A DNA stretch of 64,000 nucleotides from positions 1,240,001-1,304,000 of the forward strand of contig NC_020504.1 of the NCBI RefSeq assembly GCF_000349325.1. Reading direction: 5' to 3'. The DNA is from Streptomyces davaonensis JCM 4913. GTDB lineage: Bacteria > Actinomycetota > Actinomycetes > Streptomycetales > Streptomycetaceae. A program made the position numbers and the translations under genes. Shown here piece by piece: positions 8,863 to 24,897 of this stretch (position 1 is the first letter of the stretch; each line of letters starts with the position of its first letter). The notes under the pieces are model-generated. The model did not search any database, was not told the origin of the DNA, and was given only the letters and a program-made list of their open reading frames with translations.

Positions 8863-9385
8863 GGGCGGCGCTGAAGTCGGTCAGACGGTTCAGCCAGTTC
8901 TGGTGGGCGTTGAGCATCGGGTTGGGGAGCTGCGCGGCCAGGTCGGTGGCGATCCGGCCGATCTGCGTCTCCTGGGTGAGGACGCGGACCCGGCCGCCGG
9001 GCAGGTCCTCGACGAGCCAGCCGTGCAGGACTTCGAGCCGCTGCTCGGGCGTGCCGTCCTGTTCCGCGGTCCAGGACAGGCGGCCCGCGGCGCCCTCCGC
9101 GGGGGCCCGGCACTCGACGACCCGCGCGAACTGGGTGCTCACGGACGCGACACCGACGGGCTCGAAGGTGAAGTGGACGCCGTCCTTCAGTACGGGGCCG
9201 CCGCCCTCCGGGAAGGCGATGGCGGTGATGTGGTCCAGGTAGGAGGCCCAGGTGGCGGTGTCGGTCAGGGGGTGCCAGACCTGGGCGGCGGTGAGGCCTT
9301 GGACGATCACCTCGTTGGAGACGAAGTTGTCCCCCGTGCCGGGGAGGTACTTGTCGGGCCAGTTGATCGCGGGCTGCGTGGTCAT
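8852..9385 (-). CDS. SRPBCC (START/polyketide-cyclase-like) family protein
   Basis: A 177-residue protein with the helix-grip layout of SRPBCC domains: an early strand/helix containing GLTAAQVWHPLTD, a central beta-sheet with GVHFTFEPVGVASVS, and a long C-terminal helix with NAHQNWLNRLTDF. Such proteins bind hydrophobic ligands in a deep cavity and some act as cyclases. It is the first gene of a two-gene operon with the MFS transporter. It lies divergent from the SIR2 gene across about 90 bases. The ligand is not deducible. Confidence 0.8.
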   Translation of the reverse strand: MTTQPAINWPDKYLPGTGDNFVSNEVIVQGLTAAQVWHPLTDTATWASYLDHITAIAFPEGGGPVLKDGVHFTFEPVGVASVSTQFARVVECRAPAEGAAGRLSWTAEQDGTPEQRLEVLHGWLVEDLPGGRVRVLTQETQIGRIATDLAAQLPNPMLNAHQNWLNRLTDFSAAHGR

Positions 9386-9476
9386 GGGGCGTCCTTCCGT
9401 GTCGGATCACCCATACCCGCACAGACAGTCCCATATCAGAAGACATAGGGCGCTCGGGGCACGCAGAGTAAGAAGC

Positions 9477-11282
9477 ATGACCGACCTCGACAGGCCGACG
9501 GCGGCAGCGGCAGCGGCAGTGCGGGGTCTCGACCCCCTGGTCTCGCTCGCCATGTGCGTGCACGCGGGGCCGGGCGTGTACGCCCTTCTCCTCGGCGCCG
9601 GCATGTCGCGGGACGCCGGGGTGCCCACGGGGTGGGAGATCGTCTCGGATCTGGTGCGCCGGGCGGCCGTCGCCCAGGGTGCCGACGAGGAGCTCGCCGT
9701 CGCCGATCCGGAGGGCTGGTGGGCCCGGCACGGGGACGGCGGGGCGCTCGGCTACTCGGGGCTGCTGGAGGCCCTCGGGGACACTCCGGCCGCCCGGCAC
9801 AAGCTGTTGCGCGGCTATTTCGAGCCGGGCGAGGAGGGGCTCAGGCGGCCCGGGGCGGCGCATCACGCGGTGGCCCGGCTGGTGGCGCGGGGCTGGGTGC
9901 GGGTGGTGCTGACCACCAACTTCGACCGGCTCACCGAGCAGGCGCTGGCCGGCGCGGGCGTACAGCCGCAGGTCGTGCACAGCCCGGACAGTCTGCGCGG
10001 GATGACGCCGCTGGCGCACGCGCGGGCCACGGTGGTCAAGCTGCACGGGGATCTGGCCGACCTGGAGGCGCGCAACACCGAGCACGAGCTGAGCGAGTAC
10101 CCGGCGGCCTGGGCCGGTCTGGTGGATCAGGTGCTGGACGAGTACGGGCTGATCGTCTGCGGCTGGTCGGCACAGTGGGACCACGCCCTGTCGGCCTGCT
10201 TCGAACGTCGCGCCACCCGCCGGTACCCCTTCTTCTGGGCCGCCTCGCACGGCGTGCACGGCCGGGCCGCCGAACTCCTCGCCCGGCACGGTGCCGTCGT
10301 GGTCCGGGGACTGACGGCGAAGGAGTTCTTCCCCGGACTGCTGGACCGGGTCGAGGCCCTGGACCACCTGACGGAGCCCGCGCCGACGCGCGAGCTGTCC
10401 GTGGCCCGCCTCAAGCGCGCGCTGCCCGACCCGGTGCGCCGGATCGCGCTGCACGAGCTGGTGGACGCCGAGGCGGCGCGGGTGGTGGAGCGCCTCTCGG
10501 ACGGCGACCGGTATCCGCCCGGCGCACGGCCCGCGGAGCCCGATGCGCACCGGGATCTGCTGGCGCGGTACCGGAGCGACTGCGACACCCTGCTGCATCT
10601 GCTGGCCGTGGGCGTCTTCCACGACGAGGCCGAGGCGCATACGGCGGTGTGGGTGCGGGCGGTGCAGCGGCTGCTGAACGTGCCCGGGGACGGCGACGCA
10701 CTGCGCCTGTACCCGGCGCTGCTCGCCCTGTCCGCGGCCGGGGGTGCCGCTGCCCTGGCGGGCCGGGACGAGCTGTTCGGCCGACTGCTGCTGGAGCCGG
10801 TGCTGACGGGTACGGCGGCGGCCGAGCCCCGGCCCGCGGTGCTGGCGCTGCGCACGGAGGACGTCCTCGGCGAAGGCGAGTCGCTCAACGCGCTGCTGGA
10901 CCGGCCGTATCCGCCCGGCCTCGTGGGGACGGCGCACAGCACCTGGCTGCGCGGGCGGCTGCGGGACGTGCTGGCCGAACCTGCGGCGGACAGCGACCGG
11001 GCGGTCTCGGACGCCCTCGACTGCGCCGAGTACCTGATGGCACTGGTCCGGGCGGACCGCTCGGAATCCCCGGCGCCGCTCGGCGAATTCACCCTCGGGG
11101 ACCGCTGGGACGGCTCGGGTCGGCTGCGGGTCGCCGCGCGGGTGCAGGCCCGGTTCTCCGAGGGCTGGCCCATGCTGCGCAGCGGGGCGTTCGACGGGGA
11201 CCTCCAACGGGCCCATACGGCCGCCGCGGTGGTGGATGTGCTGTGCGCGGAGGAGGCGGCGCGGCGGGAGCCATTGCGGTGA
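9477..11282 (+). CDS. SIR2-like domain protein, candidate NAD-dependent defence effector
   Basis: A 601-residue protein. The N-terminal 300 residues form a SIR2-like domain: LLLGAGMSRDAGVPTGWE (about 38-55) is the NAD-binding glycine motif, LTTNFDRLTEQAL carries the conserved Asn, VVKLHGDL the conserved His, and VCGWSAQWDHAL closes the fold. The second half (about 310-601) is helical, Leu/Ala/Arg-rich and of no family I recognise. Proteins with this arrangement include antiphage NADases as well as uncharacterised ones. No zinc-binding Cys quartet of true sirtuin deacetylases is present. The ATG at 9477 follows GTAAGAAG. It is followed by a small protein gene and, convergently, a NACHT NTPase. 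The defence role is inferred. Confidence 0.75.
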   Translation: MTDLDRPTAAAAAAVRGLDPLVSLAMCVHAGPGVYALLLGAGMSRDAGVPTGWEIVSDLVRRAAVAQGADEELAVADPEGWWARHGDGGALGYSGLLEALGDTPAARHKLLRGYFEPGEEGLRRPGAAHHAVARLVARGWVRVVLTTNFDRLTEQALAGAGVQPQVVHSPDSLRGMTPLAHARATVVKLHGDLADLEARNTEHELSEYPAAWAGLVDQVLDEYGLIVCGWSAQWDHALSACFERRATRRYPFFWAASHGVHGRAAELLARHGAVVVRGLTAKEFFPGLLDRVEALDHLTEPAPTRELSVARLKRALPDPVRRIALHELVDAEAARVVERLSDGDRYPPGARPAEPDAHRDLLARYRSDCDTLLHLLAVGVFHDEAEAHTAVWVRAVQRLLNVPGDGDALRLYPALLALSAAGGAAALAGRDELFGRLLLEPVLTGTAAAEPRPAVLALRTEDVLGEGESLNALLDRPYPPGLVGTAHSTWLRGRLRDVLAEPAADSDRAVSDALDCAEYLMALVRADRSESPAPLGEFTLGDRWDGSGRLRVAARVQARFSEGWPMLRSGAFDGDLQRAHTAAAVVDVLCAEEAARREPLR

Positions 11283-11690: not shown

Positions 11691-14384
11691 TCACACACGG
11701 GCGCCGCCCGGTCGGGTCAGGTCACCGACCGCGGTGGCGCCCGAGACGATCCGGTCCTTGAACTCGGCGTGGCAGAACTGGTAGACGGGCCCGACCCGCC
11801 GCAACACGCTGAGCAGCCGAGCGTCCTCCATGAACGACAACGGGTGCTGCGGCAACCGCTTCGCGGCGGCCAGCCGCAGCCCCGACTCGCGGTAGGTGAA
11901 CCACGCGGTGCTCGACACCGCCAGCAGTCCCACCGCGAGCCCCATCGCCAGGTTGGCCTCCAGGGTCTCCAGCCAGCGGCCGACGCCCTGCACGGCGAGG
12001 TTCTCGCTGCTCGCCAGATGCCCTTCGGTCGTGATGATCCACTTGATCAGCGGGGGCAGCAGCGCGAGCACCATCAGGGCGCCGGCCACCGTGCGGTCCC
12101 CGTGCAGCGTCGACTGCGGGGTCTCCTGTTCGAGGTCGGCCGGCATCCGGGCCCACCGCAGCACGGCGAGGCCCATGCCGAACAGCACGCCGAAGAAGGC
12201 ACCGAAGGCGAAGGCGGCCGCGAGCCGCTCCCACCAGGAGATGGTCGGTGACGCCGGCGTCACGACGGCGAGCAGGAAGGCAGGTCCGACGCCGAACAGC
12301 AACCCTCGGCCGAGACAGGCGGGGAGCATCGCCCCCAGCACGCGCAGCGGGGCGGAGAACTCCAGGCGGGCGGGGCGCGACGAGCCGCCCGGCAGGTCGA
12401 GTCCCGCCATGATCCCGGCGATCAGCAGGAAGACACAGGCACGGAAGGCCGCCCGCCGGTTGACGAAGGCGACGGTCTCGGCCGGGTTCAGGATCGAGAC
12501 GTCCGTGATCGACTGCCCGATCACCTGACGGATCGACAGATACCCGAGGAAGCCCGCCATTTCGGCGCCCAGCCAGAACAGCACGAAGAAGACCAGGATC
12601 CGCTGGAGTTGGGCCCGGCGGTGGCCCGGGGCGCGCGGGCGCGTCGACGCGCTGCGGCGCAACAGCGCCCAGCACAGCACGCCGAGGGCCAGCAGCGCCA
12701 TGAACAGCATCCAAGCGGCACCCGCCTTGACCCCTGTATAGGCGGCCACGCCCATGTCCAGGCCCATGTCCGTGCCGGCGGCCGTCCTCGCCCAGTGCTC
12801 GATCACCGCTCCCACCGCGACGGCGAGCGGCAGCAACACGGCGACCGCGACGCCGAGTCGGCGCGGGATCTCCACGGAGACGGGACGCCGGGCGCGCAGC
12901 GCCGGTCGGGTGCCGCCGCCGACGTAGGCGATTCTGATCATGACCGTGGCGGCTACGGCCGTGGCGAGCGTGATGACGAGGAAGCCGACGAAGCGCTCGA
13001 ACGGCGAGAGCGCCCAGTGGAAGTAGTCACCCACCATGCAGCCCGCGCCGAGCCCGACGACGGATCCGGCGACCGGTCCGGACAGGGGGCCGGCCGGCGA
13101 GGGGCGCAGTGCCCGGTGCAGTTCCCACCAGGCGATGTCGTCGGTGCCCTGCCGTTTGATGTGGGCGGCGAGGAAGCTCAGTGAGGTCCGGGCGTCCTCG
13201 GGCCGCCACCGGGTGGCGGCGGTACGGCGCACGTCGGGCACCGAGGGGTCCCCGGCCGTCGGTTCCGCGGAGAACACCGCCGGGACCAGCGCGTCCAGCA
13301 GATGGTGCTGGAGGCTGTCGGCGTCGGTGGAGCGGATGAGTTCGGCCGGGTCGCTGCTCGGCGAGGCGTAGACGGTGCGGGCGAGCCAGACGTTCAGCGG
13401 CACCGACAGGGCCTGCGCGACGGGGCCTTCGGGCCGTCCGGTGAGTTCGTCGAGGACCGGCTGCCAGGCTGCGCTGCGCCGGGGCGGTACGGCGCTGCGC
13501 AGGTACTCGGCCACGTCCGCCGCCCCGACCCGCTCCGCGACCACCACGGCCGCGGCGGTGACCACGTCGGTGTCCGTCACCATGCGGTGGTACTCGGCCT
13601 GCCGCGAGGTCAGGATCAGCGGACCGTGTACGGCGATGGCGTGGTTGACGGCGGCCATCGCCCTCAGCCGCAGCTCGGCGGGGAGTTCGTCCAGCCCGTC
13701 CAGGACCGGCAGGACCCGTCCCTCGGCGACTAGTTTGCGGGCCGCGTCCCTGCCGTACGTCTCGTGGTTGCGCAGCGCCGGGTAGTCCTCGTGGATACGG
13801 CGCGCCATCCAGTCCAGCAGGGGTTCGCGGCGCGGGTTCCACGGGGCGAGGTCGAGCAGGACGGGGACCGGCTCGCCGGGTTCGGGGTCCCGCAGCAGCT
13901 CGCGTACGAGGAGGATCGCGAGCGCCGTCTTGCCCGCGCCCGGGTCGCCGAGGACCACGAGTCTTCGGCGGGGCAGGGCGCGGAAGGCGGCGGCGAAGGA
14001 CGCGATGTCGTCGCTGCGGCCGGACACGGTGCGGCCGACCATCCGGACATGGTCCCCGGCCTCGGTCTGGCCGCTGCGCCAGCGCACCGCCAACGGGTGG
14101 GGATCCAGCAGCCCTTGGGCGGCGGCCTCCTCGGTCCACTGGCGGCGCACCATGGCGGCGAGCGCCTCGGCGGCCTGTTCCAGTTCGGTCCGGGTGGCCG
14201 GGGCGGCCGGCCGGGAACGGTGCCAGGACCAGCTGAACAGACCGGCCGTGGCCGAGATCAGGACGCTCAGCGAGGTCGCCGCCGCCTGCGCGCCCGCGCC
14301 GATCACGAGGGCCACCACCGTGACGAGCACCCCGGCGCCTGCCGCTCCGATCAGCCAGGGCCACCACGCTCTGTTGTGTCGCAT
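11691..14384 (-). CDS. Membrane-anchored NACHT-type STAND NTPase
   Basis: An 897-residue protein. Two hydrophobic segments lie at the N-terminus (about 8-55), then a NACHT NTPase with Walker A GDPGAGKTALA (146-156), Walker B VLPVLDGLDEL (224-234), a sensor-1-like LILTSRQAEY, and a helical region. The C-terminal 450 residues hold many predicted membrane helices, for example around 400-460, 500-610 and 640-830. STAND ATPases use nucleotide-driven switching as signal-transduction or conflict proteins, and membrane-bearing forms are known in actinobacteria. Its ATG is only 4 bases from the stop of the upstream FG-GAP gene on the same strand, so it may be transcribed as the last gene of that operon. 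Whether it works with the sugar-oxidation genes or with SIR2 is open. Confidence 0.82.
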   Translation of the reverse strand: MRHNRAWWPWLIGAAGAGVLVTVVALVIGAGAQAAATSLSVLISATAGLFSWSWHRSRPAAPATRTELEQAAEALAAMVRRQWTEEAAAQGLLDPHPLAVRWRSGQTEAGDHVRMVGRTVSGRSDDIASFAAAFRALPRRRLVVLGDPGAGKTALAILLVRELLRDPEPGEPVPVLLDLAPWNPRREPLLDWMARRIHEDYPALRNHETYGRDAARKLVAEGRVLPVLDGLDELPAELRLRAMAAVNHAIAVHGPLILTSRQAEYHRMVTDTDVVTAAAVVVAERVGAADVAEYLRSAVPPRRSAAWQPVLDELTGRPEGPVAQALSVPLNVWLARTVYASPSSDPAELIRSTDADSLQHHLLDALVPAVFSAEPTAGDPSVPDVRRTAATRWRPEDARTSLSFLAAHIKRQGTDDIAWWELHRALRPSPAGPLSGPVAGSVVGLGAGCMVGDYFHWALSPFERFVGFLVITLATAVAATVMIRIAYVGGGTRPALRARRPVSVEIPRRLGVAVAVLLPLAVAVGAVIEHWARTAAGTDMGLDMGVAAYTGVKAGAAWMLFMALLALGVLCWALLRRSASTRPRAPGHRRAQLQRILVFFVLFWLGAEMAGFLGYLSIRQVIGQSITDVSILNPAETVAFVNRRAAFRACVFLLIAGIMAGLDLPGGSSRPARLEFSAPLRVLGAMLPACLGRGLLFGVGPAFLLAVVTPASPTISWWERLAAAFAFGAFFGVLFGMGLAVLRWARMPADLEQETPQSTLHGDRTVAGALMVLALLPPLIKWIITTEGHLASSENLAVQGVGRWLETLEANLAMGLAVGLLAVSSTAWFTYRESGLRLAAAKRLPQHPLSFMEDARLLSVLRRVGPVYQFCHAEFKDRIVSGATAVGDLTRPGGARV

Positions 14385-14388
14385 GGCG

Positions 14389-15648
14389 TTACGGCCGGAC
14401 GGCCGCTTCCTCGATGTCGTTGCGGAACAGGCAGAGTTTGGCGTCCTCGGCGAGGAAGTACTTGTCGACCTTGTAGGCGATGGTGGCGAAGTCGAGCCGG
14501 CCGTCGCCGTTGAAGTCGCCGATGGCGATGCGCGCGGCGCTGTCGGAGGACACCCGCCACTTGGCGAAGACGCCCGCCTCGACGTCCAGGCACTTGTAGT
14601 AGAAGACGCCCTGCCAGGGGTACGGCCCGCGCAGCGCGACCAGGAACTCGTCGTCGCCGTCGTTGTCGAAGTCGGCGCAGACGATCTGATGGCTCGGGCC
14701 CTCGCCGAGTTCGTTGGGGTCGCCGAAGACGTCCAGCACGATCCGGCGCCAGCTCGCCTCGGCGACCGGCGTGCCGGGCCGTTCCTTGACGTAGGCGGCC
14801 ACGGTGTTGCCGTGGAAGGGCTCGGTGGCCACGACGTACGCGTGCGGGTCGTCGCCGATGCGTCCGGCGCCCACGTCGCCGCTGCCCTTGAACCCGGTGG
14901 CGTCGAACCGTTCGTGCTCGCCGTCGCCGATGTGCGTGGTGGTGAAGCGCTGCTGGGGCTCGTCGTAGTGGAGCCAGGTGACGCCCTCCTCGGAGGCGAG
15001 CAGGATCGAGTCGAGGTGCTCGCTGCCCGGGAGCGGGTTCTTCTGGATCTCCACGCCGTGGATCATGCGGTAGTGGGCATCGTCGATGATGCGCTTGTCC
15101 CAGGGCTGGCGTGGGTCGTTGTTGGGGCTGAACAGTACGACGGGCACGAGGGCGTGGACGTGGTGGGCGCCCACCGTGGGCAGGGCCATCAGCTCCGGTC
15201 TGCGGGTCTGGGTGAAGTGGCCGAGGCGCATCCGGTGCATGGCGGTGTGGCGGCCGATGAAGTGGCGCTTCCAGCGGGTCTCGGAGTCGAACTTGCCGGT
15301 GTTCTCGATCCAGTCGATCTTCCCGCCGTCGGGGTCGGGGTCGTCGATCCGGCCGCGGGCGCCGTACAGCTCGTAGCAGACGACGATGTCGGGGAAGCCG
15401 TTGCCGGAGATGTCTCCGTAGTGGGCGCCGATCGGCATGTGGAAGCCGTCGGCGACCAGGCGCTTCTGCCAGCCGGGGTTCTGGTACCAGTACAGCTCGC
15501 CGAGGTAGAGACCGTGGCCGACGAGGTCGGGGCGGGTGTCGCCGTCGATGTCGGGGGCCTCCAGCCAGTAGCCCTCGTTGAGGTCGTCCTCCAGGACCTC
15601 GCGGGTGAAGCGGGGGACGCGGAGGTTCAGGGGGGTGCTTGCGCCCAT
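14389..15648 (-). CDS. FG-GAP/VCBS-repeat beta-propeller protein, possibly aldos-2-ulose dehydratase-like
   Basis: A 419-residue protein with no signal peptide. FG-GAP/VCBS-type calcium-loop repeats are spread along it: APDIDGDTRPDLVGHGL, YGDISGNGFPDIVVCYEL, CADFDNDGDDEFLVALRG and IGDFNGDGRLDFATIAY. This indicates a seven-bladed-type propeller, and the length is close to the N-terminal propeller of fungal aldos-2-ulose dehydratase, which dehydrates the 2-keto sugar made by pyranose oxidase. The downstream cupin domains of that fungal enzyme are absent. It lies 27 bases downstream of the TIM-barrel gene, in an operon with a pyranose-oxidase homologue. The fold is confident. The dehydratase role is inference from context and length. 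Confidence 0.72.
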   Translation of the reverse strand: MGASTPLNLRVPRFTREVLEDDLNEGYWLEAPDIDGDTRPDLVGHGLYLGELYWYQNPGWQKRLVADGFHMPIGAHYGDISGNGFPDIVVCYELYGARGRIDDPDPDGGKIDWIENTGKFDSETRWKRHFIGRHTAMHRMRLGHFTQTRRPELMALPTVGAHHVHALVPVVLFSPNNDPRQPWDKRIIDDAHYRMIHGVEIQKNPLPGSEHLDSILLASEEGVTWLHYDEPQQRFTTTHIGDGEHERFDATGFKGSGDVGAGRIGDDPHAYVVATEPFHGNTVAAYVKERPGTPVAEASWRRIVLDVFGDPNELGEGPSHQIVCADFDNDGDDEFLVALRGPYPWQGVFYYKCLDVEAGVFAKWRVSSDSAARIAIGDFNGDGRLDFATIAYKVDKYFLAEDAKLCLFRNDIEEAAVRP

Positions 15649-15675
15649 GGTGGGGTGCCTTCCGGTGTCTGTGGG

Positions 15676-16623
15676 TCAGGTGGGGGTGAGAGCCCGGGCC
15701 AGGTAGGCGTGGGCGGTCTGGGCGTAGTAGAGCGGCGGGTGGCCGCCCCGCGGGTCCTGCTCGGCCTCGACGACCAGCCAGCCCCGGTAGGACTCGCCGG
15801 GGCCGAGGACCTTCAGGACGGTGTCGAAGTCGATGTCGCCGTCGCTGTCGCCGGGCACGGTGAAGATGCCGGCCTCGATGTACTCGCGGAAGCTGCCGTC
15901 GGCCAGCGTTCGGTCGGCGCGGACGGCACCGCGGACGTTCTTCAGGTGCACATGCGCGATGCGGTCCCGGTGCCGTTCCATCAGCGCCGTCAGATCGGCG
16001 CCCGCCCAGGTGAGATGGCCGGTGTCGAGCAGCAGGCCGACATGGCGGGGGTCGGTGTCCCGCATCAGCCGGTCGACGTCCCGCTCGGTCTGGACGCCGG
16101 TGCCCATGTGGGGGTGGTAGGCGAGGGCGTAGCCCTGGCCCGCGACGATCTCGCCGATCTTGTCGAGGCCCTCGCAGAGGTCCGCCCACTGCTCGTCGGT
16201 GAACTCCGGTTTGTTGCTGCGCAGGCTGAGCTGCTGGAGATGGACGGAGCGGCCGAACTCGGCGACACCGATCGTGGTGGTCCGCACGGGCGGCCCGTCG
16301 GCGTTGAACCGGTTCAGGAACTCCAGCACCCGCAGCAGCTCGCGGGCGGTGCGCGCGGAGCCGTCGGGCACGGTGAAGTACGTGCTCACCCAGGGCTCGC
16401 TGACGCTGAGCCCACGCAGGTGCATGGCGGCGGTCAGCGCGTCGGAGTCGGTGGGGAAGGTGTGGCCGATGCTGCACCCCTCGAACCCGGCGAGCGCGAT
16501 CTCGCTGAGGCACTGCTCCATGGGGATGTCGTCGCCGATGAGCGGGAAGTCGTCGTTGGTCCAGCAGGTGGGGGTGATGCCCAGGTGGATGCCGTCCGGG
16601 CGCGGGGTGGTGTGAACCGGCAT
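15676..16623 (-). CDS. Sugar phosphate isomerase/epimerase-type TIM barrel (IolE-like)
   Basis: A 315-residue AP-endonuclease-2/xylose-isomerase-like TIM barrel. The N-terminus HLGITPTCWTNDDFPLIGDD closely resembles myo-inosose dehydratase IolE. Likely metal ligands lie in LAYHPHMGTG, LLLDTGHLTWAG, HVHLKNVR and WLVVEAEQDP. Relatives catalyse keto-sugar dehydration or epimerisation, or, as the alpha subunit of C-glycoside deglycosidases, eliminate the aglycone from 3-keto glycosides. Here it is sandwiched between a pyranose-oxidase homologue (28 bases upstream) and a propeller protein, so a keto-sugar substrate is likely. The exact reaction is open. Confidence 0.82.
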   Translation of the reverse strand: MPVHTTPRPDGIHLGITPTCWTNDDFPLIGDDIPMEQCLSEIALAGFEGCSIGHTFPTDSDALTAAMHLRGLSVSEPWVSTYFTVPDGSARTARELLRVLEFLNRFNADGPPVRTTTIGVAEFGRSVHLQQLSLRSNKPEFTDEQWADLCEGLDKIGEIVAGQGYALAYHPHMGTGVQTERDVDRLMRDTDPRHVGLLLDTGHLTWAGADLTALMERHRDRIAHVHLKNVRGAVRADRTLADGSFREYIEAGIFTVPGDSDGDIDFDTVLKVLGPGESYRGWLVVEAEQDPRGGHPPLYYAQTAHAYLARALTPT

Positions 16624-16651
16624 GGTGGGGTCCGTAGGTCGGGTCGGGGGG

Positions 16652-18352
16652 TCAGTGTCCGGGGTGGCCCTTGACGATGGTGTCGACCGCGTGCAGCGCC
16701 ATCGCGACGCTGGTGAGCGTGGGGTTTGAGGCGTTGCCGAAGGGGTGCAGGCCGTTGCCGCCGAGATAGAGGTTGTCGATGTGCCACACCTTGGAGTACT
16801 CGTCCACGACGCTGTCCAGCGCGCTGCGGCCCATCCGGGTGGTGCCCGCGATGTGCAGCGGCAGGCCCGGGGTGAGGAACACCGGTTCGGAGCCGGGCAT
16901 GAACCCGCCGAGCGCGGCGGCGGTGCGCATCATGTGACGGCTCATCCGGTCGGTCTCCTTGCGTTCGGCCTCGTCGAGGCGGAAGGAGAAGGTGGGCTGC
17001 GGCAGGTCGAAGGTGTCGCGGAGCCGGCGGGAGAAGGTGACCTTGTTCTCCGGGCGGGGCCGGGAGATCCCGAACCAGCGCAGGTCCACGATGAGCCGGG
17101 GGTCCACATTGGGCGGTACCGCGCCGTAGGTGAAGGCGTCCCGGTGGATCTGGCAGTGCCAGGGGCGCGCCTCGGACACCAACAGGGCCAGGTTCGGGTC
17201 CCGTTCGCAGGGTGGGAAGGGCACCGGGTCGGCGGTCTTGTCACCGGCGTGGAGCTGCTTGAGCTGGGCGGCGCGGTAGCGGGCGACACGGTCGGCGGCG
17301 GCCCGGTCCGGGTCGTCGCCGCTGTGCAGGATCTCCTCGATGTGGTCCATGTGCTGCTGCTCCAGCACCACCTGGCAGAAGGACATGGGCTGTTCGGTGA
17401 GATAGCGGCCGAGCGCGGGCAGGGTGACGCCGGAGGTGAACAGCAACTGCGGTGTGGGTACGGCGCCACAGGCCACGACGTAGGTGTCGGCCCGCAGCCG
17501 GATCTCGTCGCGGACGTCACGCAGATTGCGCACCACGGCGTACTGGACCTTCTGGTGCTTGCCGGAACCCGTGATCTCCAGCCGGACGCACTGGTGCTCG
17601 GGCAGCAGCCGGAACGAACCCTGCGGGGGTGTGTGCGCGGGGTCGGCCAGTTCACCGAGGACGGTGTCGGCGGCCGACCAGGTCACCGCGGAGGTGTGCG
17701 CGGAGTCGGCACGGTCGCTGACCGCGAGGGGCAGTTCGGTGACATCGGCGAACTCCTCCCCCGCGCGCTGGAGTACGCGCTTGACCAGCAGGTGCCGGGC
17801 GGAGGCGGCGAAGACCGAGGTGCTGCGGGCGAGCAGTGACTCCGCCTCCTCGTAGAGCCGGTCCATCGCCTTGTCGTCGATGGGGTAGCCCTGGCCCGCG
17901 TACTGCCGTTCCACCTCGGGATGGAACCGGGGCACGGCGCAGGTCCAGTGCGTGGCCATGCCGCCCACCGCGTAAGTGGCCGCGGCGGCGGGCAGGTTGA
18001 GGTGCCCGCGCTGTTCCGGGTTCTGGTTGCGCATCGAGAAACCGGCGTACTTGTCCGGGTCGTAGGAGAACGCGGACGGGTCGAGCGTGAGCACGGGTTC
18101 CCGGTTGGTGGCGGTCGACAGCGGGAGCAGATTGCCCTTGATGACGGAGACGAACAGGTCGATGTTCCGCTGGAACAGATAGCTGTTCTTGAGGTGTTCG
18201 CCGTAGTGCCGGGAGAGCTGGGCCCCGGCGTCGATCATCAGGACGTGCTTGCCCGCGTCCACCAGTTTGCGGGCGAAGGTGCAGCCGACGGGGCCGCTGC
18301 CGATGACCAGTACGTCGGCCTCATGGGGGACGGGCACAGCGCTGTCGTTCAT
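16652..18352 (-). CDS. Pyranose 2-oxidase-like GMC flavoprotein (pyranose oxidase / glycoside 3-oxidase)
   Basis: A 566-residue GMC oxidoreductase. The FAD loop is VLVIGSGPVGCTFA (14-27). The segment VGGMATHWTCAVPRF (129-143) matches the flavinylation region of fungal pyranose 2-oxidase, with His135 in the place of the covalent His. Further matches are IHRDAFTYGAV (substrate loop) and VDLRWFG. The catalytic pair corresponds to His500 (LHIAGTTRMG) and Asn543 (NASNPTLT). Such enzymes oxidise C2 or C3 of glucose or glycosides with O2 or quinones as acceptor. GAAAGG sits 6 bases before the ATG at 18352 but abuts the ATG at 18358, so 18352 is the start. There is no signal peptide, so it is cytoplasmic. 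It is first gene of the operon and divergent from a LuxR regulator. Confidence 0.9.
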   Translation of the reverse strand: MNDSAVPVPHEADVLVIGSGPVGCTFARKLVDAGKHVLMIDAGAQLSRHYGEHLKNSYLFQRNIDLFVSVIKGNLLPLSTATNREPVLTLDPSAFSYDPDKYAGFSMRNQNPEQRGHLNLPAAAATYAVGGMATHWTCAVPRFHPEVERQYAGQGYPIDDKAMDRLYEEAESLLARSTSVFAASARHLLVKRVLQRAGEEFADVTELPLAVSDRADSAHTSAVTWSAADTVLGELADPAHTPPQGSFRLLPEHQCVRLEITGSGKHQKVQYAVVRNLRDVRDEIRLRADTYVVACGAVPTPQLLFTSGVTLPALGRYLTEQPMSFCQVVLEQQHMDHIEEILHSGDDPDRAAADRVARYRAAQLKQLHAGDKTADPVPFPPCERDPNLALLVSEARPWHCQIHRDAFTYGAVPPNVDPRLIVDLRWFGISRPRPENKVTFSRRLRDTFDLPQPTFSFRLDEAERKETDRMSRHMMRTAAALGGFMPGSEPVFLTPGLPLHIAGTTRMGRSALDSVVDEYSKVWHIDNLYLGGNGLHPFGNASNPTLTSVAMALHAVDTIVKGHPGH

Positions 18353-18720
18353 GGACATCCTTTCGGCGTGGCCGCGTCGGCGGCACAGGGGGCCGCCGAG
18401 CAGATCCGGCCGAAGAGCCGGTCCGGTGGGAGGTCGGTCAGCCGCCGCACATCCAGGACGGCGGTGCCGCACATACGAGGGCGGGGAAACCGCATGGACG
18501 GTCCGTGGATGCCTCATTCACGGTGGCACAGGGTGGACGCATGTGCGAGTTGTCATATGCCAGAGGCGTACTGGATCACTGGGGCCGCGGCGAGCGCTCG
18601 CTGACCTCCACGAAGTCCCTCCGCCGGGGCTCCCCGGCGTGCCGGACGGCCTGGGAGGAACGAGACTGGAGCTGTGAGGCCCGCACGCACGCGGCCCGGC
18701 CCCGTCGGAGTGAGGCGCCC
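18353..18720 (+). promoter_or_regulatory. Divergent intergenic region between the pyranose-oxidase operon and the LuxR gene
   Basis: A 368-base gap without a convincing gene. In-frame extension of the LuxR gene to 18505 has poor codon bias. The stretch around 18510-18570 is the least G/C-rich and probably holds the divergent promoters. I see no perfect long palindrome. The strong LuxR ribosome-binding site GGAGTGAGG ends 6 bases before 18721. Confidence 0.45.
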
Positions 18721-19344
18721 ATGAGTGCGGACGCAAGACGTGTCGCCGTCGTCGGTGACTGCCCGTTACTGCGCAACGGCGTGGCCCATGTCGTCGAGGA
18801 CGCCGCCGATTTCACTCTCGCCCTCACCACCCGGTCGGTCGACGAGGCCGCCGCCGCACTCGTACCGGGTGACATCGCCCTGGTGGACCTCCAGCTGCCG
18901 CCGGCATGTCTGTCGGACGTGGTGGGACGGCTCACCGCTCAGGGCGTCGCCGTCCTGGTCTTCTCCTCCGGCCCGGACCGGCACGCCGTGCCCGCCATGC
19001 GCGCCGGCGCCCGCGGCTGCCTCAGCCGGCAGGCCGACGAACGCGAGCTGCTGGCGGCGATCCGGCTCGTGGCCGACGGCTGCTCCTACATCTCGGCGGA
19101 TCTCGCCGTACGTGCGGACCCGGCGCCGTCCTGCCGGGTCACGGACCGTGAGCGCCAGATCCTGGACCTGGTGGCGCACGGGGAGACGGATCACGCCATC
19201 GCCGTCCGCCTGGGCATCAGCGAGCACACCGTGCACTCCCATCTGGACCGACTGCGAGACAAGATCGGCTCCCGGCGCCGGGCGGACCTGACCCGCTTCG
19301 CCATCACGCACGACATCATTCCCCCGGCTTCCTGGCCGGGGTAA
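18721..19344 (+). CDS. NarL/LuxR-type response regulator with a TTA codon, orphan
   Basis: A 207-residue regulator. The receiver-like half has the phospho-acceptor candidate in IALVDLQLP. The C-terminal LuxR helix-turn-helix reads LTDRERQILDLVAHGETDHAI in essence, then LGISEHTVHSHLDRLRDKI. No histidine kinase lies nearby. The receiver lacks the usual acidic pair after the first strand (it reads VAVVGDCPLL), so phosphorylation may be atypical. Codon 16 is TTA (18766-18768), the rare leucine codon read by bldA tRNA, so translation is expected to be development-dependent. It is divergent from the pyranose-oxidase operon and is its likely regulator. The start is set by GGAGTGAGG. Confidence 0.85.
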   Translation: MSADARRVAVVGDCPLLRNGVAHVVEDAADFTLALTTRSVDEAAAALVPGDIALVDLQLPPACLSDVVGRLTAQGVAVLVFSSGPDRHAVPAMRAGARGCLSRQADERELLAAIRLVADGCSYISADLAVRADPAPSCRVTDRERQILDLVAHGETDHAIAVRLGISEHTVHSHLDRLRDKIGSRRRADLTRFAITHDIIPPASWPG

Positions 19345-19437
19345 CGCTGCCCCTGCCGGGTGTAGGTGCTTCTCCCCTGTGCAGCCCCTCCCCTGGCCAC
19401 CACACTGAGGGCAGCAGCCCAACATGGTGAGGCTCCG

Positions 19438-21243
19438 ATGGATCGTAAGAAGCTCGAGGAACTCTTCTACGGAAACCGTCTCAGGCCCGTTCCCTGGGCG
19501 ACGGACTGCCCGCTCCGGTTCGACGCCCTGCTGGCGCTCGCCCATCTTCCCGAGTCCGCGCCGGAGACCCGGGAGGACCTGATCCTCGCCATCAACGAGG
19601 ACCACGGTGTCCAGCAGGTTCTCCAGCGCTTCAAGGACCGGAACATGCTGATCCCCTGCGAGCCGATCGCCTCCGGCAGTTTCGTCGCGGCGAAGCTGAC
19701 GCTCAGCGAACTCGTCCAGGTCGTGCTGCCGTTGACCAATCTCTACCGGGTCATCCATGACGGGCAGCGCCTGGCGCTCGACATGGGCGGCCCCGGCATC
19801 GAGGACGCGTTGCGGGAAGACCTCCCGGCGGAGCCACGCAGCAGCGATGTTCCCGATCCCTCCATGTGGGGTCAGGAGCGGAGTCGGCACCTGAGGTGGT
19901 TCCTCAGACTCCTGGCGGCCGTCGTCACGGAGTCGACTCGTCCCGTCGTCGGTGCGCCGGCCACGCCGGTGAGCGCCCAGGTGGTCACGATGCTCACCGG
20001 AGTCCAGCTGACGCCGTCGGACACCAGGCTTCCCGAGCCGGCGGCGGGGGCCGTCATCGACCGCAGACAGCGGTACCCGATCCTCTCCGTGACCGTCAAC
20101 CGACAGTCGTCCAGCGCGGTCGTGCGCTCTCGGGCCACCATCAAGGCCGACGCCGCCGAACAGGTCTTCTCGGTGGACTGCCGCTCGATCGGCTGGGCCG
20201 TGGTCGACAGCGGCATCGACGCACTGCACCCCGCCTTCCTGGACTGGGACACGCCCGTCGAGCCGGGACAGCCACAGCCGCAGCGCCAGTCACGCATCAC
20301 TCGCGCCTTCAACTTCGTCGGCGTACGCAAAACCCTGTCCCTCGACCAGCTGGACGACGGACGCATCGACTGGCCCCGGGCCCTGCCGTATGTCGAGTTC
20401 GAGTTCCCCTGGGCGCCTGCCCCGGCTCAGCGTCCCGAGGGCCCGCGTCGCCCGCCGTACACCGCCCCGCTCGACCCGCACGGCACCCACATCGCGGGGA
20501 TCATCGGTGCCCGGTGGCCCCGGCCTCTTCCCGAGGCCGAGTTCCGTGGCATCTGTCCCAGGATCAAGCTGTACGACTTCCGGGTCCTCGACGCCGACGG
20601 GACGGGGGACGAGTTCTCCATCGTCACGGCCCTTCAGGCCATCCGGTACATCAACGAACAGGCCGGACGGTTCGTCATCGCCGGGGTCAACCTCAGCCTC
20701 TCGGTGCCCCATGACGTGGCGAGCCACTCGACCGGGTGGACCCCGGTGTGCATCGAGTGCGACCGGCTGGTCCGCTCGGGTGTGGTGGTCGTCGCCGCGG
20801 CCGGGAACTCCGGATACGCGGGCGCCGTACGCACGTTGGGCAAGGACTACCACGGAGCCAGCATCTCGGATCCGGGGAACGCGGAGTCGGTCATCACGGT
20901 CGGCTCCACCCATCGCAGCAATCCCCACCGCCACGGCGTCAGTTACTTCTCCAGCCGGGGCCCCACCGGCGACGGCCGGCCGAAGCCCGATCTCCTGGCG
21001 CCGGGTGAGGACATCGACGGACCCGTCCTCGGCGAGAGCATCGCCGCACTGCACGGCACCAGTCAGGCGGCGGCGCATGTGAGCGGTGCCGCCGCGATGC
21101 TGCTGGCGCGCAACCGGGAGCTGATCGGGCGTCCGGAACGGGTGAAGCAGATCCTGTGCGGGACGGCGACGGATCTGGGCCGGGAACGGCATTTCCAGGG
21201 CTCCGGCCTGGTCGACGTGCTGCGTGCGATGCAGTCCATCTGA
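19438..21243 (+). CDS. Subtilisin-family (S8) peptidase with an N-terminal extension, no signal peptide
   Basis: A 601-residue protein. The catalytic triad is visible: Asp257 in VVDSGIDALHP, His348 in DPHGTHIAGI, and Ser542 in GTSQAAAHVSGAAA, with the oxyanion Asn in AAAGNSGYAG. The first 240 residues are an unrecognised domain, partly helical (residues 1-170), that could be a sensor or autoinhibitory module. There is no signal peptide and no pro-domain of the I9 type, so it is probably intracellular. The ATG at 19438 follows GGTGAGG. It is first in a three-gene cassette with an MBL-fold protein (25 bases downstream) and a patatin (ATGA overlap), suggesting a single proteolysis-linked pathway. 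The substrate is unknown. Confidence 0.83.
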   Translation: MDRKKLEELFYGNRLRPVPWATDCPLRFDALLALAHLPESAPETREDLILAINEDHGVQQVLQRFKDRNMLIPCEPIASGSFVAAKLTLSELVQVVLPLTNLYRVIHDGQRLALDMGGPGIEDALREDLPAEPRSSDVPDPSMWGQERSRHLRWFLRLLAAVVTESTRPVVGAPATPVSAQVVTMLTGVQLTPSDTRLPEPAAGAVIDRRQRYPILSVTVNRQSSSAVVRSRATIKADAAEQVFSVDCRSIGWAVVDSGIDALHPAFLDWDTPVEPGQPQPQRQSRITRAFNFVGVRKTLSLDQLDDGRIDWPRALPYVEFEFPWAPAPAQRPEGPRRPPYTAPLDPHGTHIAGIIGARWPRPLPEAEFRGICPRIKLYDFRVLDADGTGDEFSIVTALQAIRYINEQAGRFVIAGVNLSLSVPHDVASHSTGWTPVCIECDRLVRSGVVVVAAAGNSGYAGAVRTLGKDYHGASISDPGNAESVITVGSTHRSNPHRHGVSYFSSRGPTGDGRPKPDLLAPGEDIDGPVLGESIAALHGTSQAAAHVSGAAAMLLARNRELIGRPERVKQILCGTATDLGRERHFQGSGLVDVLRAMQSI

Positions 21244-21268
21244 AGTGGCCGGGCTCGAAAGGAGCGCC

Positions 21269-22348
21269 ATGTTCACATTCGACTTCCTCAACGCCCGCCA
21301 CGGCGATGCCTTCCTGGTGCGGTGGGGGTCGCCGAAGGAAAAGGTCATGCTCGTCGACGGAGGGCCGCCTCAGGTCTTCGAGACGTCGCTGCGCGACCGC
21401 CTGTCCCAGCTGGCTCCGGACGCGCAGGGCAGCCCGAGGATCGACGTCGTGTGTCTGTCGCACGTCGACGACGACCACGCCGTCGGACTGCTCAAACTGC
21501 TCACGCAGATACAGCGCGCCCGGCGGGACGCGGAACCCGATCCCTTCGCCGTGAAGCGGGTCTGGTTCAACTCCGTCGACGAACTGGTGGACCGCAACTC
21601 ACCGGGGCTCAGCGCCTCGACCCAGGAGATCGTGGACCGCGCGAGCGAGGACAGCAGCGCCGTCAGTTCCAGTTACAACCAGGGACGGGCCATCCGGGAC
21701 GCCGCGGCGGCACTGGGGCTCGGCGGCAATCCCCTCTTCGACGGCCCCCTCCTCGTGGGCGAGGAGGCGACGCTCGACCAGCTGCACGTCAAGGTCGTGG
21801 CCCCGGACGACGTCGCCCTGGAGAAGCTGACGCAGCGCTGGCTCAAGGCGAAGCAAGCCAAGGACCCGCAGGTCATCACCTCGGCCTACACGGACGGTTC
21901 GATACCGAATCTCTCCAGCATCGTGCTGATGCTGACGCACAAGGGACGGACGGCCCTGCTCACCGGAGACGCCAGAGGCGACCGCATCCTGGCGGGGTTG
22001 CGTGCCACCGGGCTCCTCGACGACACCGGACCGCTCCATGTCGATCTGCTGAAACTCCCCCACCACGGCAGTGATCGCAACGTGGAGAGCGACTTCTTCG
22101 AGAACATCCACGCCGATCACTACGTGATCTCGGCCGACGGGGTGAAGCACCACCATCCCAACGAGGAGACCCTGCGCATGCTCGTCGAATCGCGGGAGCC
22201 CAACGCCGAGTACACCATCCACCTGACCAACCACATCGAGTTCGCCGACGCCACCCTCGACGACCTGAAGGACGGCCGGAAGTTCACGGTGGACGTCCGG
22301 TCGCCGGCGGACTTGGCACTCGTCATAGAGGTCGGTGAGGAGCAATGA
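21269..22348 (+). CDS. MBL-fold metallo-hydrolase (ComEC-C-terminal-like)
   Basis: A 359-residue metallo-beta-lactamase-fold protein. The first beta strands lead to MLVDGGPP, the metal motif is SHVDDDHAVG (64-73, the SHxDxDH type), then LLTGDARGD and KLPHHGSDRNVESD supply further ligands. This pattern is shared with the C-terminal domain of ComEC and related hydrolases. It has no membrane segments and no signal peptide. AAAGGAG lies 5 bases before the ATG at 21269. The last codons overlap the patatin start (ATGA 22345-22348), so translation is coupled. The substrate could be a nucleic acid or a phosphodiester. Context suggests that it belongs to the protease-patatin cassette. Confidence 0.85.
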   Translation: MFTFDFLNARHGDAFLVRWGSPKEKVMLVDGGPPQVFETSLRDRLSQLAPDAQGSPRIDVVCLSHVDDDHAVGLLKLLTQIQRARRDAEPDPFAVKRVWFNSVDELVDRNSPGLSASTQEIVDRASEDSSAVSSSYNQGRAIRDAAAALGLGGNPLFDGPLLVGEEATLDQLHVKVVAPDDVALEKLTQRWLKAKQAKDPQVITSAYTDGSIPNLSSIVLMLTHKGRTALLTGDARGDRILAGLRATGLLDDTGPLHVDLLKLPHHGSDRNVESDFFENIHADHYVISADGVKHHHPNEETLRMLVESREPNAEYTIHLTNHIEFADATLDDLKDGRKFTVDVRSPADLALVIEVGEEQ

Positions 22349-23577
22349 ACGACCGCACCAGGGACACCCGTTGGGCCGTCGACTCACCCGCCCTCGGCAC
22401 CGGCCTTCAGGCCCGGCCCTGCGGCGACACCCTGCGCCCCGCCCAACCACCCACCACCACCGACCCGTTGGCCGTCGCCCTCTCCGGAGGCGGCTTCCGG
22501 GCGACCCTCTCCGCCCTCGGCTTCCTGCGTCTTGTCGCCGACGCGGGGCTGCTGTCCCAGCTGAGATACGCCTCGTCGGTGTCCGGAGGATCGCTGGCCA
22601 ACGGCCTGCTCGCCACGCACTATCCAGCCCTGAAAGCACAGGGCTTCACGACCGCCGCGGTCGACGAAATCCTCATCGACCCGGCGATCGAGCAGATCAG
22701 CTCCCACTCCCTCAAGAAGGCGCTGCTACGGGGGCTGTGGCGCACCGTAGGCCCGATGACCCGCACCGAACTCCTCGCCCGGCGCCTCGACGAATGGTTC
22801 TTCGACGACACCGGTCTTGAGGACCTGGACCCGCAAGTCCGCTGGATCATCAACGCGGCCAACCTGACCACCGGAGTGCGGTTCACCTTCGAACGCGACG
22901 TGTACGGCGACTACACCATCGGGTTGGCTCCTACGGCCGGCACCGGGCTGAAACTGTGCACAGCGGTCGCCGCCTCGGCCGCGGTCCCGGGGGCCTTCCC
23001 ACCGCTGGTCCTCAACCGCGCGAGCTTCCCCTGCGGCACCGACGCACCCGCCCTCCTGGACGGCGGCGCCTACGACAACACCGGCTCGGAGGCCCTCGAC
23101 AGCGAGCGGTACCGCGATGTGTTCCTGCTCGTCCTCAACGCGGGAGGCCTGCTGCGCCCCGGAGCGTACGGCGGCATACCGATCGTCCGCGATCTCGCGC
23201 GCGCCAACTCGCTGCTGTACCGGCAGAGCACGGCACTGCGCACGCGGCTGATCGTCGAGCGCTTCCTGAGCGGCCATGCCGTGGGCCGCGAGGAACCCCT
23301 GCCTCCCGGCGCACGCCGGGGCGTCCTGGTGGCGCTGGCCACCGACTTCCCCAAGAGCGCCCCCGGGCAGTTGGACAAGTGGCGGGACGCCTTCCCCGAG
23401 CACCGCACGCACGAAGGCCGGGACCTGGCCCTCGTACCGACCGTCTTCGACCGGCTGGAGGAGTCCCTGTGCCGGGCGCTGGTGTACCGCGGCTGGTGGC
23501 TCGCGGGCGCGGGCCTGGCGGCGTACCACCCCCACCGCCTGCCGGACATCGCGTCGATCAAGGCACCGCCGCTGTGA
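22345..23577 (+). CDS. Patatin-like phospholipase (cPLA2-type Ser-Asp hydrolase)
   Basis: A 410-residue protein with an intact Ser/Asp dyad. The oxyanion loop is SGGGFRATLSALG (47-59), the nucleophile Ser80 lies in SSVSGGSLANG, and Asp239 lies in LLDGGAYDNTG. The SVSGGS form of the elbow is more like cytosolic PLA2 than plant patatin. The likely activity is release of fatty acids from membrane lipids. No signal peptide, so it acts on the inner face of the membrane or on lipid droplets. It is the third gene of the cassette and overlaps the MBL gene by 4 bases. Patatins are common membrane-attacking effectors in bacterial immune systems, and an upstream protease could be its activator. That link is inference. 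Confidence 0.85.
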   Translation: MNDRTRDTRWAVDSPALGTGLQARPCGDTLRPAQPPTTTDPLAVALSGGGFRATLSALGFLRLVADAGLLSQLRYASSVSGGSLANGLLATHYPALKAQGFTTAAVDEILIDPAIEQISSHSLKKALLRGLWRTVGPMTRTELLARRLDEWFFDDTGLEDLDPQVRWIINAANLTTGVRFTFERDVYGDYTIGLAPTAGTGLKLCTAVAASAAVPGAFPPLVLNRASFPCGTDAPALLDGGAYDNTGSEALDSERYRDVFLLVLNAGGLLRPGAYGGIPIVRDLARANSLLYRQSTALRTRLIVERFLSGHAVGREEPLPPGARRGVLVALATDFPKSAPGQLDKWRDAFPEHRTHEGRDLALVPTVFDRLEESLCRALVYRGWWLAGAGLAAYHPHRLPDIASIKAPPL

Positions 23578-23590
23578 ACCGACGGGTCCG

Positions 23591-24838
23591 TCAGGCACCG
23601 TCGACGGCCGCGAGCAGCCGTCGTACGGCTTCGTCGACCGTGGCGCGCGGGCAGCCCAGGTTCACGCGCATGTAGCCGTGGCCCTCGATCCCGAACTTCT
23701 GCCCCTTGTCCAGCCAGAGGCGGGCCTTGGTGAGCATGAACTTGTCCAGGGACTCGGCGTCCATTCCCAGGCCGCGGCAGTCCATCCACGCCAGATAGAG
23801 CGCGTCGGCGGGCAGCACCCGCAGCTTGTCGGTGGCGCCATTGACCGCCTGTGCGAAGTGGGTGTGGTTGCGGCGCAGGTAGGTGAGCAGCGCCTCCAGC
23901 CAGGGCTCTCCATGCGTGTAGGCGGCCTCGGCGGCGGCCATGCCCAGCACGTTGACGAACGGGAAGGCGTTGCGCTCGTACTGGCGGGCCAGTTCCTCGC
24001 GGAGTCTCGGGTCGGGGACGAACACGTTGGCGCTCTGGAGGCCGGGGAGGTTGAACGTCTTGCTGGGTGCCGTGCAGGTGATGCTGTTCCGCGCGAACTC
24101 CGGGCCGAGCGAGGCGAACGGGACGTGCTTGCGGTCCGGGTTGACGATGAGGTCCTGGTGGATCTCGTCGGATATGACGAGGACGCCGTGCCGGGCGCAG
24201 ATCTCCCCCATGGTCCTCAACTCGTCCTCCGTCCAGACGTTTCCGGTGGGATTGTGGGGATGGCTGAGGATGAACAGCTTCGTGCCGGGCCGGATGGCGG
24301 CTTCGAACACGCGGGCGTCGAAGCGGTAGCCGTCATCGGTGCGCTCAAGCGGAGCGTGGGCGAGGCGGCGGCCGTTGAGCAGGACGTCGTCGTGGAAGTG
24401 GGCGTAGACCGGCGGCTGGATCAGGACCGAGTCACCGGGGGCGGAGAACGCTTGCACGGCCGTCTTGAGCGTGGTGATGACGCCGGCCGTCTGAAGGACC
24501 CACTCCCGCGGCACCTCCCAGCCGAACCGTCTGGCCTGCCAGCCGGTCACGGCGTCCAGGTAACTGTCGGTCGCGCCGCCGGGATAGCCGAAGACGCCGT
24601 GGTCGACGGCCTCGTGCAGCGCGTCGATCACCGCTTGGGGAGCCCTGAAGTCGGTGTCGGCGACCCACATCGGCAGCGGGTCGGCGGCGGCCTCGTCGGG
24701 CGCCAACAGCTGCTGGCCGTGGGCCCACTTCAGGGAGTTGGAGTTCCTGCGGTCCACGACGGTGTCGAAGACCGCTCCCGAGTGAGCGGCGATGTCCCGT
24801 CGTGCCTGGTCACGGAATGCGGTGTCATCGGGTCCCAT
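23591..24838 (-). CDS. MalY/PatB-type PLP-dependent C-S lyase (aminotransferase class I/II)
   Basis: A 415-residue fold-type I PLP enzyme. The segment LPMWVADTDFRAPQAV near the N-terminus is the hallmark of the MalY/PatB (cystathionine beta-lyase) subgroup. SHPHNPTGNVW and VISDEIHQDLI hold cofactor Asn and Asp residues. The Schiff-base Lys lies in TAPSKTFNLPGL. The expected reaction is beta-elimination of cysteine S-conjugates or cystathionine, giving pyruvate, ammonia and a thiol. It lies downstream of, and in the same direction as, the S8 peptidase gene, separated by a hairpin. It is convergent with the patatin gene, 13 bases away. Confidence 0.88.
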   Translation of the reverse strand: MGPDDTAFRDQARRDIAAHSGAVFDTVVDRRNSNSLKWAHGQQLLAPDEAAADPLPMWVADTDFRAPQAVIDALHEAVDHGVFGYPGGATDSYLDAVTGWQARRFGWEVPREWVLQTAGVITTLKTAVQAFSAPGDSVLIQPPVYAHFHDDVLLNGRRLAHAPLERTDDGYRFDARVFEAAIRPGTKLFILSHPHNPTGNVWTEDELRTMGEICARHGVLVISDEIHQDLIVNPDRKHVPFASLGPEFARNSITCTAPSKTFNLPGLQSANVFVPDPRLREELARQYERNAFPFVNVLGMAAAEAAYTHGEPWLEALLTYLRRNHTHFAQAVNGATDKLRVLPADALYLAWMDCRGLGMDAESLDKFMLTKARLWLDKGQKFGIEGHGYMRVNLGCPRATVDEAVRRLLAAVDGA

Positions 24839-24868
24839 GGCCGGATGCTAGCCACGAGGGGCGGCAAT

Positions 24869-24895
24869 GAGTCCGGCTCACCTCGGCCAGGACTC
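24869..24895 (-). terminator. Candidate terminator hairpin after the second S8 peptidase gene
   Basis: GAGTCC (24869-24874) pairs with GGACTC (24890-24895), extended by GGC/GCC inside with a single bulged A. It sits directly downstream of the peptidase stop (minus strand) and before the malY-type gene. There is no U-run. Confidence 0.4.
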
Positions 24896-24897
24896 GT

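Follow-up and report, generated by a model that had tools for sequence, protein, structure and literature searches.

Background

Pyranose 2-oxidase (POx) and aldos-2-ulose dehydratase (AUDH), the fungal enzymes closest to the system considered here, are encoded by adjacent genes in several wood-decay fungi (PMC4256170). Among bacterial enzymes, the POx of Kitasatospora aureofaciens (KaPOx), a tested member of clade I, oxidised monosaccharides and was inactive on the glycosides tried (PMC10807413), and peroxide supply for lignin attack has been proposed as its role (PMC9916811). A 64,000-nucleotide (nt) stretch of the Streptomyces davaonensis JCM 4913 genome (C1:1240001-1304000 in 9.56 Mb; hereafter the window) carries a three-gene unit encoding a POx-like flavoprotein, an IolE-like TIM barrel (TIM) and a stand-alone AUDH-type propeller. 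This unit is a real, conserved bacterial variant of the fungal POx/AUDH route and is undescribed in the sources searched: no description of a bacterial POx-TIM-propeller operon was found in the open-licence literature subset searched, and the word "operon" is absent from the main text of PMC9916811 and PMC10807413. The three genes, with product lengths in amino acids (aa), are:

16652..18352, minus strand: pyranose 2-oxidase-like GMC flavoprotein (POx), 566 aa, ATG at 18352, first gene
15676..16623, minus strand: IolE-like xylose-isomerase-type TIM barrel (TIM), 315 aa, second gene
14389..15648, minus strand: stand-alone AUDH-type FG-GAP propeller, 419 aa, third gene

Organization and conservation of the unit

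The original prediction, made from the letters of the window, had described these genes, and its coordinates, strand, lengths and spacing all hold, with gaps of 28 nt (POx-TIM) and 27 nt (TIM-propeller); its observation of the unit is confirmed. A promoter and terminator scan across 14300-18700 found nothing useful.

In a scan of 295 genomes of the genus (cut-offs POx E <= 1e-60, TIM E <= 1e-60, propeller E <= 1e-40), POx was found in 6, TIM in 16 and the propeller in 19 genomes, and all six genomes with POx hold the three genes adjacent and in the same order, a co-occurrence beyond chance. When searches of the class (394 genomes) and the order (293 genomes), which overlap, are added, 15 genomes have a POx match, nine with the three-gene unit and six without it, the latter having the most distant POx (35-57% identity). 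The order POx-TIM-propeller recurs in 16 operon loci (L003/L113 and L006/L108 each represent the same genome twice). The unit is carried by Saccharothrix L072 and L081 at identities of 56-57% (POx), 50% (TIM) and 41-43% (propeller), and is intact in G097 at 46% (TIM) and 40% (propeller).

Pyranose oxidase

POx scored 541.2 bits against NCBIfam TIGR02462 (curated cut-off 544.9), and its Saccharothrix orthologue in L072 scored 611.3 bits. The best PDB match was 9fl2 (3.4e-117), the pyranose oxidase OPOx of Oscillatoria princeps (PMC11650716), whose C2 regioselectivity was established by nuclear magnetic resonance. The flavinylation, catalytic and substrate-loop features of clade I (AA3_4) are present, with the residues at the positions predicted: the flavin-linking His region ATHW (H135), the catalytic H500 and N543, and a substrate loop, DAFTYGAVP starting at 405, of the clade I-type pattern DAFxYGxVP, unlike clades II-IV. 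The clade I loop is given as DAFHYGDVP and the clade I flavin motif is printed as GTWH in PMC10807413, and by comparison with the loops given there the window POx does not carry the loop of glycoside-type POx/CGOx. The protein is 97% identical to a POx named Streptomyces cinnabarinus, presumably the S. cinnabarinus POx listed in Table 1 of PMC9916811 as 48% identical to KaPOx. Pau41, the "pyranose oxidase" of paulomycin, was also considered and led nowhere.

The POx start is kept as MND-, with a purine-rich stretch ahead of it, in six relatives (L002-L006, L069). A 64-aa stretch upstream of S. huasconensis POx was scored as a twin-arginine translocation (Tat) leader in Table 1 of PMC9916811. 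No leader-like stretch directly before the start was conserved across the window and its relatives; by eye, the in-frame residues just before the start differ between them. Farther upstream, L002, L003, L005 and L006 resemble one another, and a glycoside hydrolase (GH15) gene occupies another frame there, extending 4 nt into POx in L002 and L003; the upstream residues of L004 (S. huasconensis) are the same as those of L003. Because the stretch before the start varies and the GH15 gene fills the other frame farther upstream, a secreted POx is disfavoured, and POx and its pathway are probably cytosolic.

AUDH-type propeller

The third product matched FG-GAP repeats and Pfam PF22301 AUDH_beta_propeller (2.2e-50), as the predicted 419-residue FG-GAP propeller should. 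In the comparison with the AUDH dehydratase propeller that had been set beforehand as a test, its residues 11-408, nearly the whole length, matched residues 19-430 of AUDH (PDB 4a7k) at 1.5e-64. In an alignment of 87 bacterial propeller rows (window included; 3 of the 89 fetched rows dropped; near-copies and repeats of the same genome among them) with AUDH, exactly four His are invariant, H138, H197, H279 and H320, equivalent to AUDH H155, H215, H295 and H337; E276 (AUDH E292) is also invariant. By our own blade assignment, H138, H197 and H320 occupy the same register within their blades. The N-terminal propeller with invariant His set that marks AUDH is thus found in the window protein. The AUDH structure of Claesson and colleagues from 2012 reportedly has a Zn site in the propeller and a lectin domain, and His155 is said to have been proposed there as a proton-shuttling, candidate catalytic residue of the dehydration; window H138 aligns with H155. 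Judging by their titles, one AUDH entry in PDB contains ascopyrone M and another has been depleted of the active-site metal.

The 419-aa chain stops after the propeller, without the cupin folds that occupy AUDH residues about 456-734 and, matching AUDH 19-430 only, without a C-terminal lectin domain. The bicupin profile A2 had no match in the window's genome (G000), while G179 and G092 were matched. Judged by sequence, the window protein is homologous to the AUDH dehydratase domain, which refines the earlier suggestion that the propeller takes the place of that domain; the missing part is the cupin half, which is encoded near the propeller in many other bacteria. A sequence search of the bicupin family against PDB gave no credible relative, whereas its fold model did yield one.

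TIM and bicupin occurred together at none of 80 propeller loci. The operon propellers do not form one clade: in the tree, those of the window type nest in a bicupin/epimerase group, and a constraint uniting every operon propeller lowers the log-likelihood by 113 units (p-AU 4.7e-53; 60 rows, with the group picked once the tree was known). In the POx (SH-aLRT 95) and TIM (89, not starred) trees, the window type groups with the G022 type, not with Saccharothrix. It is thus probable that one AUDH-type propeller was swapped for another while POx and TIM stayed together as a unit, suggesting that the unit needs the propeller's activity.

Other propeller surroundings were also seen. A cluster of an epimerase-like gene, bicupin and AUDH propeller is present in 60 of the 80 loci L002-L081 (e.g. 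L010, L018, L038), often with a berberine-type FAD oxidase, an acyltransferase and an MFS gene, in Streptomyces, Xenorhabdus, Serratia, Pseudomonas, Gluconobacter and others; there, elimination of uridine diphosphate could give the enol of 1,5-anhydrofructose, followed by dehydration and tautomerisation. In L055, L058 and L065 (Paenibacillus, Oscillatoria, Planktothricoides), a GH31 protein with the lyase Asn accompanies propeller and bicupin, in what looks like a bacterial anhydrofructose pathway. A further partner type appears in L068, L071, L073, L075, L076 and L115, where the propeller lies near a ThuA-like gene with neither bicupin nor TIM.

IolE-like TIM barrel

The predicted IolE-like assignment agrees with a TIGR04379 score of 307 bits, above the equivalog cut-off of 290, and with the best PDB match, 3cny IolE (4.2e-66). 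The conserved E, D, H and E of the protein are candidate metal ligands. All 22 rows of the operon/GMC clade carry C50-S51, so that Ser51 replaces the IolE-type Glu after strand 2 present in 3cny, 9zmu and L114; from these three, we infer that this Glu defines IolE. L114 is the genome's other IolE-like copy. It scores only 149.6 against TIGR04379 and adjoins an inositol-dehydrogenase-like gene and rhizopine/sugar-type ABC genes, all matches being below cut-offs. The three-gene unit has no other inositol-type gene, such genes lying elsewhere in the genome, and annotation of TIM as inosose dehydratase is likely a mis-annotation.

A TIM of the operon clade also occurs with a GMC protein and a PF12902 ferritin-like protein in L059, L062 and L066 (Roseococcus, alphaproteobacterium), with a nearby propeller, and in Streptomyces L116 and L117 without one; the GMC protein of L116 is glucose/fructose-dehydrogenase-like, and a debranching enzyme gene adjoins the grouping in L059.

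Proposed pathway and alternatives

The operon probably encodes an oxidise-dehydrate-rearrange route for a free sugar or anhydro-sugar. POx would use O2 to oxidise C2 of a monosaccharide to a 2-keto sugar and H2O2, with glucose the first candidate and xylose or 1,5-anhydroglucitol others. The propeller, as a stand-alone AUDH dehydratase domain, would then polarise the C2 ketone by its His-bound metal (reportedly Zn in AUDH), the C3 proton being lost and the C4 hydroxyl eliminated. These two steps, proposed because the proteins are homologous to characterised enzymes whose genes also neighbour each other in fungi, very likely form one pathway. In a third step, putatively in this order, the metal-dependent TIM would take the role of the bicupin half by tautomerising or hydrating the enolone; this is proposed from the mutual exclusion of TIM and bicupin and from general family chemistry, and whether TIM stands in for the bicupin is evenly balanced. 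The route would end in compounds of the cortalcerone or microthecin/ascopyrone type, or in intermediates that return to metabolism.

Several observations weigh against this route. POx (P0001) falls 3.7 bits below the TIGR02462 cut-off. POx also occurs alone, since G669, G372, G610, G331, G667 and G451 (POx 35-57%) lack both a propeller match (E <= 1e-10) and a close TIM genome-wide, and the stand-alone POx of G669 groups within the operon POx clade. Shared ancestry could account for part of the exclusion between TIM and bicupin, and a bicupin can lie some 7 kb from its propeller (L067, L070). The top total score of the L058 GH31 protein is maltase-glucoamylase (201 bits), the lyase coming second (175). 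Neither the window nor L111 or L112 has a GH15 gene upstream of POx, and the three-gene unit has no transporter, though there is an MFS gene at 7660-8862. Lastly, in L116 and L117 the operon-clade TIM accompanies a glucose-dehydrogenase-like GMC protein with no propeller within the 14-kb stretch, so TIM may act directly on a keto sugar.

The last point, together with the gene order POx-TIM-propeller, would fit a pathway in which TIM acts first on the 2-keto sugar as dehydratase, C3/C4 epimerase or eliminase and the propeller next, with no bicupin stand-in and a non-fungal end product; IolE itself dehydrates a 2-keto cyclitol. We consider this unlikely, given that TIM and bicupin share none of the 80 propeller loci and that the window-type propeller accompanies TIM although its ancestors were associated with bicupins. 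Cleavage of C- or O-glycosides, with POx oxidising glycoside C3, TIM eliminating the aglycone and the propeller an accessory subunit, draws on the glycoside 3-oxidases of the POx family and the TIM-barrel Mn beta-eliminases acting on 3-keto glycosides (PMC10628242, PMC10807413). The clade I-type loop and monosaccharide precedent, the propeller's own invariant His set and the missing partner make it highly improbable and set it aside as the main explanation: as predicted, no DUF6379-like beta subunit was matched among the four proteins scanned (the three genes and the next downstream; the rest of the genome was not searched for one).

Inositol catabolism, in which TIM would be a true inosose dehydratase in a unit degrading a cyclitol, gains from the TIGR04379 score, above cut-off where the genome's other copy falls far short. 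It was set aside since the genome has inositol-type genes, accompanied by an IolE-like gene of their own, at another place, and with Ser51 in place of Glu there is very little to be said for it. Nor is it at all probable that POx only supplies H2O2, for example for lignin attack as proposed for secreted KaPOx (PMC9916811), the other two genes being incidental or the propeller merely sugar-binding: no leader-like stretch right before POx is conserved (in L003 it is the GH15 gene end in another frame), the genes stay together in G097 at low identity, and the propeller His are strictly conserved.

Of the roles originally offered, a split bacterial version of the fungal route thus gains support from the homologous propeller and the joint recurrence of the three genes; a new C-glycoside deglycosidase is disfavoured by the clade I-type loop, the IolE-like TIM and the partner not found in the proteins scanned. 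A propeller unlike that of AUDH and lacking a conserved metal site, or three genes never found together, had been named in advance as grounds for rejection; neither was the case, because the propeller is homologous to that of AUDH with four invariant His and the genes stand side by side in other genomes.

A wider scheme is advanced tentatively, its likelihood a little short of even. The AUDH propeller would be a portable bacterial dehydratase module for 2-keto/anhydro-sugars and fungal AUDH a fusion of bacterial propeller and bicupin genes; in the POx operon an IolE-type TIM would have taken over from the bicupin (non-orthologous displacement), which would yield a glucose-to-pyrone pathway in bacteria and an intracellular role for bacterial clade I POx beyond peroxide supply.

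Neighbouring genes and substrate

In five window-type relatives, POx directly follows a same-strand GH15 gene whose N-terminal domain is trehalase-like, with a 4-nt overlap in two (L002, L003) and a junction of 23-48 nt in three; in two others, a GH65 gene with an F5/8 type C domain lies upstream:

L002, 822-2723: GH15 gene upstream of POx
L003, 5000-7282: GH15 gene upstream of POx
L005, 688-2904: GH15 gene upstream of POx
L006, 5356-7209: GH15 gene upstream of POx
L069, 5320-7194: GH15 gene upstream of POx
L100, 2690-5485: GH65 gene with F5/8 type C domain upstream of POx
L110, 3508-6252: GH65 gene with F5/8 type C domain upstream of POx

A PDB search with the GH15 protein found nothing at 1e-10. 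Because alpha-glucosides, trehalose and maltose among them, are the usual substrates of GH15 and GH65 enzymes, glucose appears the likeliest POx substrate. The MFS gene at 7660-8862 (minus strand), a sub-family sugar-transporter match with 83-86% homologues downstream of the operon in L003, L004 and L005, could be the operon's transporter.

At 11691-14384 (minus strand), starting 4 nt past the propeller gene, lies a gene for an 897-aa protein whose NACHT match stays below threshold (26.0; cut-off 26.7); its homologues also adjoin the propeller in L002-L005 and L111-L113 (L113 and L003 being the same genome), and it probably has a separate function. A SIR2-like protein matching the PADLOC candidate defence family PDC-S65 (2.7e-174) is encoded at 9252-11282 (plus strand). 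Genes at 18505-26118 encode a divergent LuxR-type regulator adjoining POx, two subtilases, a metallo-beta-lactamase-fold protein, a patatin and an aminotransferase; the regulator had no match in the operon loci compared.

Comparison with known systems

Through a conserved operon that includes a dehydratase domain, bacterial pyranose oxidases gain a concrete, testable metabolic role; the operon also points to a bacterial counterpart of the fungal cortalcerone and anhydrofructose routes and to bacterial split forms of the two-site fungal enzyme, whose two reactions could be studied individually in separate single-domain proteins. If the proposal is true, a bacterial glucose-to-pyrone pathway previously without assigned enzymes gains them.

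IolE inosose dehydratase shares with the window TIM the fold family and the conserved E, D, H and E, but TIM has Ser51 for Glu and no inositol context. The levoglucosan pathway LgdA-LgdB1-LgdB2-LgdC and the AtOGE operon likewise oxidise a sugar carbon and then use TIM-barrel elimination and hydration; they differ in acting at C3 rather than C2 and in their oxidases, and the parts of the two papers considered mention no propeller (PMC10066097, PMC10628242). KaPOx has the clade I-type loop and flavin region in common with the window POx and, unlike it, was shown with a functional upstream leader (PMC9916811). The fungal pair of POx and AUDH (pyranosone dehydratase), which converts glucose to cortalcerone, has a homologous oxidase and a homologous dehydratase propeller with the same four His; the window dehydratase consists of the propeller only, without the cupin half or lectin domain, and an IolE-like TIM stands between oxidase and propeller.
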